Source of the DNA: Spirochaetes bacterium ADurb.Bin133
GTDB taxonomy: Bacteria; Spirochaetota; GWE2-31-10; MWDO01
Direction of reading: 5' to 3'
NCBI GenBank assembly: GCA_002070605.1
Contig: MWDO01000029.1
Location: 1 to 34,401, forward strand
Length of the DNA stretch: 34,401 nt
A program made the position numbers and the translations under genes. This document shows, piece after piece, positions 1-34,401 of this stretch (within the stretch, counting starts at the first letter, position 1; each line of letters begins with the position of its first letter). The notes under the pieces are model-generated. The model had not been told where the DNA came from and searched no databases. It saw only the letters and a list, made by a program, of their open reading frames with translations.

Positions 1-7
1 TTTTCAT
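1..7 (-). CDS. 5' tip of a paralogue of the element-borne tandem RHH-like protein (partial, runs off left edge)
   Basis: Only the start codon and the next codon are inside the window, read on the minus strand from position 7. The call rests on the upstream sequence: on the minus strand, positions 8 to about 118 match the leader of the complete gene at 11762 almost base for base. That match includes the AGGAG ribosome binding site (complement at 17-21), the TTGTTATATATAT stretch and the block around TCATTTTCTAAAAATTTAT. The following codons (ATG AAA A..) also agree. The rest of the gene cannot be seen, so an intact reading frame is assumed, not shown. Confidence 0.55.
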
Positions 8-121
8 AAAATTTTCTCCTTTTTTCTTTATATATATATAACAACTAAAAGTAGAAAACTCTTTACAAAAATTTGTATAAATTTTTAGAAAATGATAAAT
101 AATTTACTAATAAAAAAAATA

Positions 122-325
122 TTTCATATGTGTCAATTTTTCATCGAGGAGCGTTGCGTTTCATATGCGTTATTTTTCTCTACTTTCCAAAGCGCTGAAG
201 TTACCTTATCCGAAAATATCTGTTTCATATGCGTCAGTTTTTATGCGACAATTGTCGCGCGTTATCGACGCGACGCATATGTGTCAAAAAATTAAGATAA
301 AATATGACAACGCATATGCGTCCAT
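122..325. repeat. CATATG/CAATTG palindrome array (locus 1)
   Basis: CATATG cores start at 125, 162, 226, 276 and 313, several of them within imperfect GACGCATATGCGTC palindromes. One perfect 14-bp palindrome GCGACAATTGTCGC lies at 245-258. It is followed directly by the hairpin CGCGT-TATCG-ACGCG at 258-272. The CAATTG core is 23 bp from the preceding CATATG and 27 bp from the next. The array lies between two divergent genes. Confidence 0.85.
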
Positions 326-452
326 TTCCTTACCCCAAAAAAACAGCCGGGATACCATTTATCGTATTTTTTTAATTGAAATTATTTTAAATATGTGATA
401 GTCTGACTTGATATTGAACTATTACGAAGCGACTTAAAAAACAGGAATTTAA

Positions 453-11475: not shown

Positions 11476-11580
11476 ATCCTAACCCCTTAAGATTCAATTT
11501 TATAACTTTTTTAAAAAAAGTAAAGTTAAATATAAAAAAAGAGCGCCCGTCGATTTTTTTGGAGAAGGAGGAAAATAAAT

Positions 11581-11640
11581 TGACACATATGCGTCGATAA
11601 CGCGCGACAATTGTCGTATAAAAATCGACGCATATGTGTC
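11581..11640. repeat. palindrome array of copy E3
   Basis: CATATG cores at 11586 and 11631 flank a CAATTG core at 11608, with spacings of 22 and 23 bp. The orientation is opposite to the other arrays: the hairpin partner (GATAACGCGCGAC) lies to the left of CAATTG. This is the shortest array in the window. The CAATTG box is slightly degenerate on one side (GCGACAATTGTCGT). Confidence 0.85.
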
Positions 11641-11649
11641 AAATTTTTT

Positions 11650-11761
11650 AAGTAGTAATTTATTTGTCATTTTCTAAAAATTTATCCAAATTTTTGTATA
11701 ACGTTTTCTATTTTTAGTTGTTATATATATTAAAGAAATATTAAAAAAAGGAGAAAACTTT
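11650..11761 (+). promoter_or_regulatory. conserved leader/promoter region of the element gene
   Basis: This 110-bp AT-rich stretch between the array and the gene is almost the same as positions 118-8 read on the minus strand in copy E1. Shared blocks include TCATTTTCTAAAAATTTAT, CAAATTTTTGTA, TTTTAGTTGTTATATATAT and the ribosome binding site AAAAAGGAGAAAA. Conservation of a non-coding leader between two copies, next to palindromes, suggests a promoter under control of the array. A TATATT/TATATA -10 candidate lies at about 11723-11731, but I cannot fix a -35. Confidence 0.5.
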
Positions 11762-12277
11762 ATGAAAAACAAAAAACATCTATTTCACTTTATAGTATCA
11801 GAATCTATGAATACCAATGTTATAAATTTTTTACTAAAAGAGTTCAAAATTAATACGTTTAGCGAGTTATTTGAAACGATGTTTCGTCTCATTAACAAAA
11901 AAGTCCTAAAGATGAAAAGAATAATAGGAAATCATCGCTCCGAATACGCCGTTATAGATAGCTCCGACGATAAAAGGCTGGATAAATATCTCCGGATTAA
12001 CGAATCTGATTATCTTCAAATAAAAAGATGGCATTCGTTGTATAACGAATTCGGTATGGCCTCGACGGTTCGCGATATTATACTGTTTTTCTATAACGGC
12101 GTTATGAAATACGGGTTGGAAGAATTTCTTGTGATCGTTGGTAAGAAATTGAAGATGGATAAATTGAAAAACGACTTTTTGGATAAAATGACACAACTGT
12201 TAAATATAACCGCTCGAAAACGGCTATTACACACGCTCGTAATCGAAAATTACCCAAAATACGTCTATTCTACGTAA
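11762..12277 (+). CDS. element-borne protein, possible tandem ribbon-helix-helix DNA-binding protein
   Basis: This 171-aa protein has no family I can name with certainty. By eye it has two similar strand-helix-helix units. The first is FHFIVSESMNTNVINFLLKE followed by FSELFETMFRLI (residues 8-48). The second is KYLRINESDYLQIKRWHSLY followed by MASTVRDIILFFYNGVM (about 76-120). Both resemble the ribbon-helix-helix fold. Two units in one chain would act as a pseudo-dimer, as needed for palindromic sites. It has some resemblance in style to the multi-copy DUF1564 proteins of Leptospira, which I cannot verify. A partial paralogue at 34168-34401 is about four-fifths identical over 77 residues, and a third copy starts at position 7. 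AGGAG precedes the ATG. The gene ends right at the element's right end. Confidence 0.75.
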   Translation: MKNKKHLFHFIVSESMNTNVINFLLKEFKINTFSELFETMFRLINKKVLKMKRIIGNHRSEYAVIDSSDDKRLDKYLRINESDYLQIKRWHSLYNEFGMASTVRDIILFFYNGVMKYGLEEFLVIVGKKLKMDKLKNDFLDKMTQLLNITARKRLLHTLVIENYPKYVYST

Positions 12278-12310
12278 AAACCGACGGCGGCGCGCGAATA
12301 TTTTTAATAT

Positions 12311-16353: not shown

Positions 16354-18264
16354 CTAAGCTCCGATTGTAAATCTGTAGAAAGTTTTTACCTCTATCTTAG
16401 CCCCAAGAGCTTTCTCCGTATCCGCTATGTATTTTTCAACGGTTATTTTATCGTCCTTAACAAATTTTTGATCAAGCAGACATATCTCGGATAAATATTT
16501 GGCTATTTTACCTTTTACTATATTTTCGACAACCTCGGCCGGTTTGTCGCTCTCTTTCATTTGCTTATCAAAAATAGATTTTTGCTCCGCAATCTCGCTC
16601 TCCGGAACTTCCTCTTTTCTCGTATAAAAAGGAGAATTAGCCGCTACGTGCAGACAAATATTCAGAGCGAACTCTTTAAACTGCTCGTCGGTCTTTAACT
16701 CCGGTTTATCGATTTCGAACAGCGACAAAACTCCGATCTTGTTTGCCCCGTGAATATAAGTTGAAACATATTGATTTTCAGCGACGTCAATATATTTTAC
16801 TCTCTTCAACTCGACGTTTTCTTTCGTCTGGCTTATTACCTCTTGTATGTCGTCTTTGTAAAAATCCAACTCTTCGTTTTTAGAACTCAAAACTTTATCA
16901 AGAATTTTTTCTTTGGACGCTTTAAATATATCGTTCCCCGATACAAAGTCGGTCTCGCAACCTAAAAGGATCATAGCTACTTTATCGCCGTTATCTTTGA
17001 TAAAAACTCCTCCTTCCTTTGTTTCTCTGTCGGCTCTTTTCTTCGCGTCGGCGAGCCCTTTTTCTTTAAGGATTTTTACGGCTCCGTCAAAATCCCCGCC
17101 GGCTTCGGTCAGAGCTCTTTTGCACTCCATCATTCCCGCTCCGGTTACGTCTCTAAGTTGTTTTACCTGATCGGCGGATATAGTCATAGCGTTTCCTCCT
17201 GCTTCTTTTTTAGCCTCTTTTTTAATTTCTTTTTTAGTTTCTTTACTAGTTTCTTTATTAGTCTCTTTTTTCTTGTCGGCTTTCTCGGCATCCTTGGCTT
17301 CAACGCCTTTCTCCTCTACGACGTCCTCTTTAGCCGCCTCTACTTTCTTTGATTTTTTCTCTACTTTCTCGGTCTCTTCTTTTACCGAGTTTACCGCGTT
17401 CTTTGGGGAGCTCGAAACCTCCTTTTTAACGCTTTTTACTTTTGAACTATCGCTTACCTTCTCGTCGTCTCCGGTTATTTCAGCTATAGCCTCTTTATCT
17501 TTGGTTACGGCGTCCACCGACTCGATAATCTTTTCAGAAATATCCTCCGCCTCTTCTTCGTCGGTAATAATACTTATCCCTACTTCGTTATCGGCTTCGG
17601 AACAAGCGTTTGATATAATCGAACAAAAAAGGTTGATCGCTCTGATAGCGTCGTCGTTGCCCGGTATCGGATAATCGACAACGTCGGGATTACAGTTCGT
17701 GTCTACCACCGCTACTACCGGAATACCCAGCGTTTTAGCTTCGGCTACCGCTATAGCCTCTTTTTTGGAATCTATGATAAACAGCGCTCCCGGCAGTTGG
17801 GTCATATCTTTAATACCGCCGAGATTTTTTTCAAGTTTTTCTTTCTCTTTGAGAATAACAATTTTCTCTTTCTTTGTAATGGAGTCAAAAGTCCCATCTA
17901 CTTCCATTTTTTCAATTTTCTTAAGTCTTGTGATCGACTTTTTTATGGTAGTAAAGTTGGTAAGCATCCCCCCAAGCCATCTGTTATTTACGTAAAACTG
18001 ACCGCACTTTTCAGCTTCTCTTTGCACGGCGGCTCTGGCTTGTTTTTTTGTGCCTACAAAAAGAACCGGTTTATTTGCTAAAACCACCTTCCTTATAACG
18101 TCGTAGGCTTTCTTGATCTCGACTATAGTCTTCTGCAGATCGATGATGTGAATTCCGTTTCTCTCGGAAAAAATAAAACGGGACATTTTTGGATCCCATC
18201 TTCTTGTTTGGTGTCCGAAATGAACTCCAGACTCCAATAAACTTTTCATTGTTACAACCGACAA
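16354..18264 (-). CDS. rpsB-tsf: in-frame fusion of ribosomal protein S2 and elongation factor Ts
   Basis: One open frame of 636 codons encodes both proteins. Residues 1 to about 230 are S2 ([29 protein letters not shown]-type [25 protein letters not shown]). Residues about 231-359 are a low-complexity, charged Lys/Glu linker that ends in KET/KEA repeats. Residues 360-636 are a complete EF-Ts ([25 protein letters not shown] at 436-441), 277 aa from Met360. The TTG at 18264 is the start: AGGAGG lies 7 nt upstream, and MSVVTMK fits the S2 consensus. A second AGGAGG lies 7 nt before the Met360 codon, so EF-Ts may also be made alone. A stop codon lost in the A-rich linker, genuinely or by sequencing error, is the alternative to a functional fusion. 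Confidence 0.9.
17185..17200 (-). promoter_or_regulatory. internal ribosome binding site for free EF-Ts within the S2::EF-Ts frame
   Basis: On the minus strand AGGAGG (complement at 17195-17200) is followed by 7 nt and ATG (17187-17185). That codon is Met360 of the fused frame and is the natural first residue of EF-Ts ([16 protein letters not shown]). The spacing and sequence are identical to those before the S2 start at 18264. The site codes for AGGNA in the fused protein, a segment not expected to be kept for protein reasons. Confidence 0.75.
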
Positions 18265-20764: not shown

Positions 20765-20960
20765 CGACGCAACTTACGACCGCATACCCGGCGCATATGC
20801 GTCAAAAATAAATTTAACGCATATGGGGCTAAGGTAAAAATCGGCGCATATGCGCCGCTAAGAACAAATTGACACATATGGAGCTAAGATAAAAATTGAC
20901 GCATATGCGCGTCGATTTTTATGCGACAATTGTCGCGCGTTATCGACGCGCCGCATACGA
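20765..20960. repeat. palindrome array (locus 4), most regular copy
   Basis: CATATG cores start at 20794, 20820, 20847, 20875 and 20902. The CAATTG core is at 20927 and a degenerate CATACG at 20954, so spacings are 26, 27, 28, 27, 25 and 27 bp. Between boxes a second motif recurs, GCTAAG followed by an A-rich stretch and TTGAC (three times). GCGACAATTGTCGC and the CGCGT-TATCG-ACGCG hairpin are intact. Clear element ends are not visible; TTTTACCGACGC at 20760-20770 may be a degenerate left end. The locus lies between the 3' ends of convergent genes. Confidence 0.85.
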
Positions 20961-22804: not shown

Positions 22805-23006
22805 TTTTCCTCATTATTTAGAATAATTTTTACCGCCATTCGCTTATAAGATTTAACAGACTATCGCATAAAAAACCGAAAGCCCATAATTCATTATAAG
22901 ACTTTAATCAATAATTACAACTAATAATTAGAAAAATAATAAAATTTAAAAAAAATTATCATTATCGATTTAACAAATATTGTTTAAAGTAAAAATCAGA
23001 AATTTT

Positions 23007-23074
23007 GAGGCGCCCCGTCGGTTTTTTGGGGAATAAAGAATAATTTAGCGATTAAAAACATTTGTTCCATATGC
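23007..23074. repeat. solo element end with one residual CATATG box
   Basis: GAGGCGCCCCGTCGGTTTTTTGG (from 23008) followed by GGAATAAAGAATAATTTAG matches the element end at 34131-34168 and the left end at 27471. One CATATG core remains at 23068. There is no CAATTG box or opposite end. The piece lies just downstream of recX and looks like the remnant of an element. The rest of the 282-bp gap (22805-23006) is AT-rich and holds no gene. Confidence 0.55.
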
Positions 23075-23086
23075 TAAAAGCGCTTG

Positions 23087-23930: not shown

Positions 23931-24077
23931 AAAAAACTCCCTGTTATTAGGTAGAGTTACTCTAAAATATGTTAACCAAAAAATCAACCTTTATTTATCA
24001 AATTCATAAATTTTGTATTATTTTGTTTTTTTTGATTTCCGGTATAATTTTTTAGTCTGTCAACGTCGTAAAGAATT

Positions 24078-24213
24078 TTGACACATATGCGTCGATTTTT
24101 ATGCGACAATTGTCGCGCGTTGTCGACGCGACATCATATGTGTCAAACTATAAAACACAGCGACGCATATGCGTCGAATTTATTCCCCCTCTCAAAAAAA
24201 CCTACGGGATAAA
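24078..24213. repeat. palindrome array with right element end (locus 5)
   Basis: CATATG cores at 24084, 24135 and 24166 surround a CAATTG core at 24107 (spacings 23, 28 and 31 bp). GCGACAATTGTCGC is intact and is followed by CGCGT-TGTCG-ACGCG, whose loop has changed but whose stem is kept. A right end TTATTCCCCCTCTCAAAAAA then CCTACGGG occupies 24180-24209. No left end is clear. The array lies upstream of both the STAS gene and aspS, which are divergent; the rest of 23931-24303 holds only the aspS promoter. Confidence 0.85.
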
Positions 24214-27470: not shown

Positions 27471-27648
27471 CCGCGCCGCGTCGGTTTTTTTGGGAATAAA
27501 AAATATCTTGTTTCATATGCGTCGATTTTTTTTGACACATATGCGTCAACTTTGTCCTTAGCGCCATATGCGTCCATTTTTTATGCGACAATTGTCGCGC
27601 GTTATAGACGCGGCGCATATGCGTCCATTTTCCAAAAACCGACGGGCG
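27471..27648. mobile_element. compact palindrome element with both ends, no gene (copy E6, MITE-like)
   Basis: The left end is CCGCGCCGCGTCGGTTTTTTT then GGGAATAAA (27471-27500). The right end is TTTTCCAAAAACCGACGGGCG (27628-27648), its inverted counterpart. Inside, CATATG cores start at 27514, 27538, 27565 and 27616, with a CAATTG core at 27588. The box spacing is 24, 27, 23 and 28 bp. The hairpin is CGCGT-TATAG-ACGCG. At about 178 bp it has the same ends and boxes as E3 but lacks the leader and gene. It lies between the 3' end of the amylase gene and the promoter of the V-ATPase F gene. A target-site duplication is not clear. Confidence 0.7.
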
Positions 27649-27673
27649 TAAATAAAACTTCCGCGTATAAATT

Positions 27674-29401: not shown

Positions 29402-29557
29402 TTTGACGCATATGCGTTATTTTACTCTTAACACCATATGCGTTATTTTATTCTTAACATCATATGCGTCGAATTTTTATGCGACAATTGTCGCGCGTTG
29501 TCGACGCGCCGCAATGCGTCCATTTTATTTCCCCGCTCCAAAATACCGACGGGGCGC
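29402..29557. repeat. palindrome array with right element end (locus 7)
   Basis: CATATG cores start at 29409, 29435 and 29461, the CAATTG core at 29485 and a degenerate GCAATG box at about 29511, so spacings are 26, 26, 24 and 26 bp. On the minus strand the inter-box motif TTAAG plus an A-rich run appears twice. GCGACAATTGTCGC is intact and the hairpin is CGCGT-TGTCG-ACGCG. The right end is ATTTCCCCGCTCCAAAATAC then CGACGGGGCGC (29527-29557). There is no clear left end. The locus lies between the amylase start and the 3' end of the next gene upstream. Confidence 0.85.
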
Positions 29558-34126: not shown

Positions 34127-34148
34127 AAAAGAGGTCCCCGCCTTTTTT
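34127..34148 (+). terminator. possible terminator of the Omp85 gene within the element end
   Basis: AAAAGAGG (34127-34134) can pair with CCTTTTTT (34141-34148), with one G-T wobble, around the loop TCCCCG. The T run forms one arm, as in bidirectional A/T-armed terminators. The same bases form the end of the element copy at 34131, so the element end may have supplied the terminator. Confidence 0.4.
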
Positions 34149-34401
34149 ATGGAATAGAAAAGTAATTTTACGTATATCTGGGATAATTTTCGATTGCGAG
34201 CGCGTATAATAGCTGTTTTTGATCGGCGATATTTAACAGTTGTGTCATTTTACTCAAAAAGTCATTTTTCAATTTATCAACCTTTAACTTCTTACCAATA
34301 AGCTCAAGAAATCCTTCTAGTCCGTATTTCATAACGCCGTTATAAAAAAACAGTATAATATCGCGGACTGTCGAAGCCATACCGAATTCGTTATACAAAG
34401 A
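34131..34401 (-). mobile_element. 3' part of a gene-bearing palindrome element (truncated by window)
   Basis: GAGGTCCCCGCCTTTTTTAT then GGAATAGAAAAGTAATTTTA (34131-34170) matches the solo end at 23008 over about 38 bp with a few differences. It lies directly after the stop codon of the element gene, the same arrangement as the right end of E3. The array and leader of this copy must lie beyond the right edge of the window. Confidence 0.55.
34168..34401 (-). CDS. C-terminal part of a second paralogue of the element-borne RHH-like protein
   Basis: The frame is open through the right edge. The 77 visible residues begin SLYNEFGMASTVRDIILFF, which is identical to the 11762 gene over its first 29 residues. 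The rest differs at about 15 positions, mostly conservative (for example KKLKVDKLKNDFLSKMTQLL against KKLKMDKLKNDFLDKMTQLL). The C-terminus ends NYPRYT, three residues shorter. The TTG codon at 34398 is not a start; it is the Leu of SLYN. Conservation of the reading frame with mostly conservative changes suggests that both copies are under selection. Confidence 0.8.
   Translation of the reverse strand, partial: SLYNEFGMASTVRDIILFFYNGVMKYGLEGFLELIGKKLKVDKLKNDFLSKMTQLLNIADQKQLLYALAIENYPRYT

Follow-up and report, generated by a model that had tools for sequence, protein, structure and literature searches.

The question raised by this locus is what kind of element carries a small gene between inverted ends and palindromic boxes at several places of one contig, and by which enzyme it was moved. 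The window, i.e. the whole stretch of 34,401 nucleotides analysed here, is the entire contig C29 of the genome (G000; 2,985,136 bases, 103 contigs, 95.6% complete) of an uncultured member of the Spirochaetota. The nearest relative compared was a sister species (G001), represented by a MAG of about 490 contigs and 86% completeness; between both species the genes of the window differ with dS values of 0.55–0.75 and dN values of 0.036–0.114. Box counts were additionally compared with six further members of the order. According to our analysis, the locus is probably a transposase-less cassette with an autoregulator, which resembles the mobile insertion cassettes (MICs) and was moved in trans by an enzyme that is lost or was not recognised.

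The cassette and its copies in the window

The central copy consists of inverted ends, a box array, a promoter-like leader and one gene. The features of the window are as follows (coordinates, strand, description).

11543..12293, plus: gene-bearing cassette with inverted ends, box array, leader and ORF, in a layout matching that of other copies
11543..11562, plus: left terminal inverted repeat GCGCCCGTCGATTTTTTTGG (consensus end CCGTCGGTTTTTTGG)
11580..11591, plus: box TTGACACATATG
11605..11616, unstranded: palindrome CGACAATTGTCG between two CATATG palindrome boxes (14-bp form GCGACAATTGTCGC)
11631..11642, minus: box in reverse orientation, CATATGTGTCAA, nearest to the gene, its end 119 bp before the start codon
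11643..11761, plus: conserved leader of about 120 bp with an AT-rich promoter-like stretch and a GGAG ribosome site, common to the gene-bearing copies
11762..12277, plus: intact ORF of 171 amino acids, protein P0001
12277..12293, minus: right terminal inverted repeat AAAACCGACGGCGGCGC
1..356, minus: second gene-bearing copy, ORF running off the contig start; boxes shared with the main copy, leader 90% complementary to it over 87 nt
34137..34401, minus: third copy, truncated where the contig ends; identity of 81% over 77 codons and of 86% over 227 nt
20786..20955, unstranded: box array of tandem 55-bp units, ends lost
23010..23042, plus: lone left-type end
24071..24213, unstranded: box array and one decayed end (AAAAAAACCTACGGGATA)
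27473..27649, unstranded: MITE-like cassette without the gene, both ends and a box array present, flanked by AAATAATCC and AAATAAAAC
29403..29556, unstranded: gene-less cassette, right end intact, left end lost

The three loci with paralogous genes and the same ends, which the original prediction had described, are present, and two of them are truncated by the assembly, since the contig ends cut the copies at 1..356 and 34137..34401. Loci that keep ends and boxes without the gene had likewise been described; they correspond to the cassette at 27473–27649 and to decayed gene-less copies near 20.8, 23.0, 24.1 and 29.4 kb. Elsewhere in the window, a 636-amino-acid ORF on the minus strand (16354–18264) has an N-terminal match to ribosomal protein S2 and a C-terminal one to elongation factor Ts; it is an apparent rpsB-tsf fusion and contains a 12-bp tandem repeat (17203–17271).

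The family proved to be larger than originally described when the genome and its relatives were searched for the ends and the protein. Within its own genome, the 171-amino-acid gene has 83 matches, with many partial ones cut by contig ends; 55 copies are near full length (at least 165 of 171 residues, 83–100% identity). The end motif occurs at 163 + 153 = 316 sites (at most one mismatch; reversed-pattern control 0/0), and three sites were found in the sister species at the same threshold among the matches listed. For the 14-bp palindrome, 133 sites were counted (at most one mismatch; control 0). The box itself has 429 + 362 = 791 exact sites (control 0/0), compared to 39 in the sister species and 0–1 in each of the six other members of the order.

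Gene-bearing cassettes measure about 0.7–0.9 kb and gene-less ones 90–310 bp, and inverted ends are common to both. These ends are imperfect, about 20 bp long and arranged as inward-facing pairs of the pattern G[C/T][G/A].CCCCGTCGGTTTTTTGG (forms GCGCCCCGTCGGTTTTTTGG and GTAATCCGTCGGTTTTTTGG), and each array holds one to five boxes. Probably more than 100 gene-less derivatives exist in the genome. One of them (L121:480–780, contig C14) shows a perfect 9-bp duplication, ATTTTCTTA, and a GC-richer inner segment between its boxes. In two contigs of the sister species (L195, C305; L197, C477), box palindromes (GACGCATATGTGTC) lie inside coding-like repeats rich in ACGACTACG; boxes are thus also found in repetitive sequence outside cassettes.

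Transposition and the search for the moving enzyme

Mobility was assessed by target-site duplications (TSDs) and by empty sites in the sister species. Among 69 elements with both ends located, exact 8–9-mer border repeats were present in 12, while shuffling of left against right flanks (300 rounds) gave 0.44 on average and never more than 3; at a looser threshold 22 of the same elements had border repeats, with 3.3 expected. Many cassette copies are without a detectable TSD, and no clear one was recognised at the borders of the copy at 11543–12293. The flanks of this copy lie on two different contigs of the sister species, neither of which has a cassette at the break.

At two other gene-bearing loci, the orthologous site of the sister species is empty: 28 bp replace about 750 bp at L003, and 108 bp of other sequence replace about 800 bp at L010, whose target TAATAGAGA is doubled in G000 with one copy on each side. 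The MITE at C21:34856 is flanked on both sides by GTAGTTTTA, and 7 bp stand in the sister species in place of 126 bp. Empty sites were also found for the window elements at 20.8 kb (orthologous site without boxes), 23.0 kb (22953–23083 missing), 27.5 kb (cassette missing) and 29.4 kb (156 bp in comparison to 33 bp).

These observations show that the cassette transposed via a reaction which duplicates 8–9 bp of the target. The comparison of orthologous sites likewise shows that the tested copies were inserted after G000 and the sister species had separated. Copies, ends, TSDs and empty sites together bear out the prediction of a mobile family that is dispersed and comprises a gene-bearing and a MITE-like form. 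The explanation as fixed regulatory repeats, against which border duplications and empty sites had been proposed as a check, is ruled out, since both were found.

The gene-bearing copy had been regarded as the autonomous form of the family. This part of the prediction is wrong or at least unproven, because ends and duplications are the same in copies that have no gene, so that the gene is dispensable in cis, and there is no sign that it encodes a transposase. The elements are therefore transposed but most likely non-autonomous. Shared terminal inverted repeats, TSDs of 8–9 bp and insertion polymorphism are all typical of MITEs, as is the lack of coding capacity in the gene-less copies. The gene-bearing form does have coding capacity and is thus MIC-like rather than a MITE, with a passenger gene between IS-type ends and no transposase.

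Inverted ends together with a duplication of 8–9 bp are marks of DDE-type transposases. As the original prediction had stated, no known transposase is encoded inside the cassette, judged by ORF content and protein family searches. A transposase gene with cassette ends was found neither among matches to PF03050, PF01609 and PF00872 nor at the loci examined. IS66, to which the GTAA-like ends of the cassette had pointed, was rejected as donor because the genome has no match to PF03050, and an IS4/IS5-type donor because it has none to PF01609 (DDE_Tnp_1). Two matches to PF00872 (IS256) are degenerate remnants without cassette ends, and an IS256 donor was therefore also rejected. One of the IS256-type pieces is a 5' part that is directly followed by an antitoxin-like/PIN-like gene pair (L246:1411–2440, contig C36).

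A further candidate for an autonomous element was L115:614–1711 (C9:45813–46910), where 1.1 kb between perfect cassette ends contain a PIN-like/antitoxin-like gene pair. A gene-less cassette lies on either side of the pair, reminiscent of a composite element with a captured toxin-antitoxin pair, and this candidate was discarded for want of a transposase. Hypothetically, the trans-acting enzyme is lost or was not recognised. A DDE-type transposase that has since disappeared, or that is of another type than those searched, may have moved the cassette, which most likely spread in the G000 lineage once this had separated from the sister species.

The box, the encoded protein and the retention of its copies

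The box nearest to the gene lies at a median distance of 115 bp upstream of it in copies of the mobile subfamily (55 of 56), and the number of boxes tracks the number of genes across genomes. A single member of this subfamily exists in the sister species, and a second subfamily (mostly 38–46% identity) is represented there by about a dozen copies and in G000 by three full-length ones. These three stand at orthologous places in both species, so the second subfamily is older. Clear inverted ends are mostly absent from it, and the box is kept, mostly 107–150 bp before the start. As gene and box outlast the ends, the box is tied to the gene and not to transposition.

From the position of the box and its co-occurrence with the gene, i.e. 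from correlation, P0001 probably regulates its own promoter through binding to the box. If P0001 binds TTGACACATATG, its reach would extend to hundreds of boxes in gene-less arrays throughout the genome. In the sister species, a perfect tandem array of 22-bp units with five boxes precedes a promoter-like stretch and a lipoprotein-like gene (L192:93–192, contig C6); this is a candidate for a host promoter controlled by the same protein.

For P0001, no convincing relatives were found in Pfam, PHROG, NCBIfam and PDB sequences, none in viral, phage and plasmid collections, and an Rfam search gave no match. Two further genomes of the order encode weak relatives (about 26–32% identity), and the relatives inspected have no evident boxes nearby. 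An AlphaFold model from 12 sequences, of low confidence (mean pLDDT 44), places strand-helix-helix units at residues 5–13, 18–27 and 35–56 and at 72–80, 81–96 and 101–117, with further helices after them. With low confidence, this pattern may represent two ribbon-helix-helix (RHH) units in tandem and serves as a lead rather than a fold assignment. The earlier description of the protein as RHH-like thus fits the predicted secondary structure twice, but the pLDDT is low, and no profile match was obtained, also not in a comparison with the Arc repressor profile.

Pairwise comparison of 47 gap-free copies gave a median dN of 0.057, a median dS of 0.45 and a minimum dS of 0.18. Against the consensus, the median omega of all 47 copies is 0.12 (range 0.07–0.23), a value which may be slightly low, as this set was picked to be stop-free and of equal length. 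Free of that selection bias is the stop count: none of the 55 near-full-length copies has an internal stop within the match. Neutral drift from the consensus would leave 1.4 of 47 copies stop-free; if the neutral age were as low as 0.05 substitutions per site, the number would still be no more than about 24 of 56. These substitution and stop counts show that purifying selection has kept the gene copies intact.

The decay of TSDs gives a rough average insertion age of 0.15 substitutions per site. The insertions would thus be younger than the divergence of the copies, which suggests that part of the divergence predates insertion. The argument from intactness is independent of this age, because intactness of all copies is implausible even for far younger insertions.

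Linkage between variable sites drops to the background level within about 20 bp (near pairs 0.066 vs. 0.025; permutation maximum 0.033), apparently due to gene conversion among the dispersed copies; recurrent clustered mutation might produce the same pattern. The tree of copies is star-like with 85% of its length in the tips, as after a single burst, but the linkage decay points to exchange instead, and with exchange between copies the shape of the tree is unusable for dating a burst. Neither the selection nor this exchange had been noticed in the original prediction.

The question raised is why purifying selection acts on dozens of regulator genes although these are redundant. One possible, though rather doubtful, answer is a host-adopted regulon, in which the genes and box arrays of the spread cassettes now control neighbouring host genes and each gene copy is conserved for this use. 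The omega of every copy examined (0.07–0.23) compares with about 0.05–0.15 for the window genes between species, the three older genes of the second subfamily are retained at orthologous sites in both species, and the five-box array before the lipoprotein-like gene would agree with such control. By rough ORF calls, 42 of 48 copies are upstream of at least one neighbour, 21 being between divergent and 6 between convergent genes. This placement agrees with copies inserting or surviving upstream of genes, with effects on neighbours being possible, but intergenic insertion or survival could explain the bias without a regulon. Moreover, 55 similar copies far exceed the needs of a regulon, and the tested copies are missing from the sister species. 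Similarly tentative is the idea of a self-spreading regulatory network, in which the cassette disperses regulator and operator boxes and the host keeps more than 50 copies, homogenised by gene conversion, as a control layer installed by transposition.

RHH proteins, whose secondary-structure pattern P0001 is predicted to share, usually dimerise. If a multimer were pooled from all copies, defective variants would be harmful and purged, and no copy would need a job of its own. Such poisoning or addiction would account for selection against amino acid changes in redundant copies, but selection against early stops or promoter loss would not be expected, and stops are absent from the near-full-length copies; we consider it unlikely as the explanation. 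No more probable is selfish turnover, in which transposition continues and dead copies are deleted so fast that the survivors look selected. Bacteria do delete junk DNA, and the TSD decay suggests insertions younger than the divergence of the copies. However, near-identical pairs are missing (see the minimum dS), the pieces at contig ends, examined as possible recent copies, share more than 97% identity only over short stretches, and at a neutral age of 0.05 only about 24 of 56 copies would be expected to be stop-free. Quite improbable is that the 171-amino-acid protein acts as the recombinase, or as a part essential to it, which would make the gene-bearing form autonomous. The gene is the only conserved one of the element, and the polar residues R104, H91, E96 and D66 are invariant or near-invariant; the predicted two b-a-a DNA-binding-like units plus helices, the missing match to transposase families and the second subfamily, most members of which keep gene and box without clear ends, speak against this role.

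The transposase-less cassette with an autoregulator remains the preferred reading. P0001 would be a tandem RHH regulator that binds the box and controls its own promoter, and its copies may be kept functional mainly by local regulatory use in the host or by the purge of defective subunits from a shared multimer; a role in controlling the movement of the cassette would be a third option.

Comparison with known systems

MICs are transposase-less, carry a passenger gene between IS-like ends and are thought to be moved in trans; examples are MIC231 of Bacillus cereus and the qnrS2 and qnrD MICs. The spirochaete cassette shares this organisation; it differs in that no donor IS was found among the families searched and in its passenger, which is DNA-binding-like, has its own box array and is kept by purifying selection in about 55 near-full-length copies. 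The term mobile insertion cassette is used in PMC6542083, PMC5444012 and PMC3913671.

The gene-less copies of 90–310 bp with inverted ends and TSDs resemble MITEs such as NEMIS/Correia, ERIC, RUP and Nezha (reviewed in PMC10969869). Unlike these, they coexist with a gene-bearing form as their apparent source and carry the apparent binding sites of its gene product. High-copy intergenic palindromes containing CGTC are shared with REP/REPIN-RAYT systems and with the CGTC-tagged palindromes, in a survey of which Spirochaetes were among the carriers and no dedicated transposase was found (PMC3733652). In the cassette, however, the palindromes lie inside an element with terminal inverted repeats, TSDs and a linked protein family, and the duplications of 8–9 bp argue against membership in REPIN-RAYT.

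Arc, CopG and the omega repressor are small b-a-a autoregulators, the operators of which are repeated short boxes near their own promoters. P0001 is also small, with a predicted b-a-a pattern and boxes near its own gene, whereas the two tandem units with a C-terminal helical part, the missing sequence match and the distance of about 115 bp between the upstream box and the start set it apart.

The kind of element as such is already known. A passenger that resembles a regulator, boxes dispersed together with it, about 55 copies under selection and exchange between these copies were not found in combination in the papers searched, which were limited to open access. The cargo of a non-autonomous element would be expected to be dead or incidental, but here selection keeps the cassette genes intact, and the family provides a natural system for how transposition can rewire bacterial regulation.
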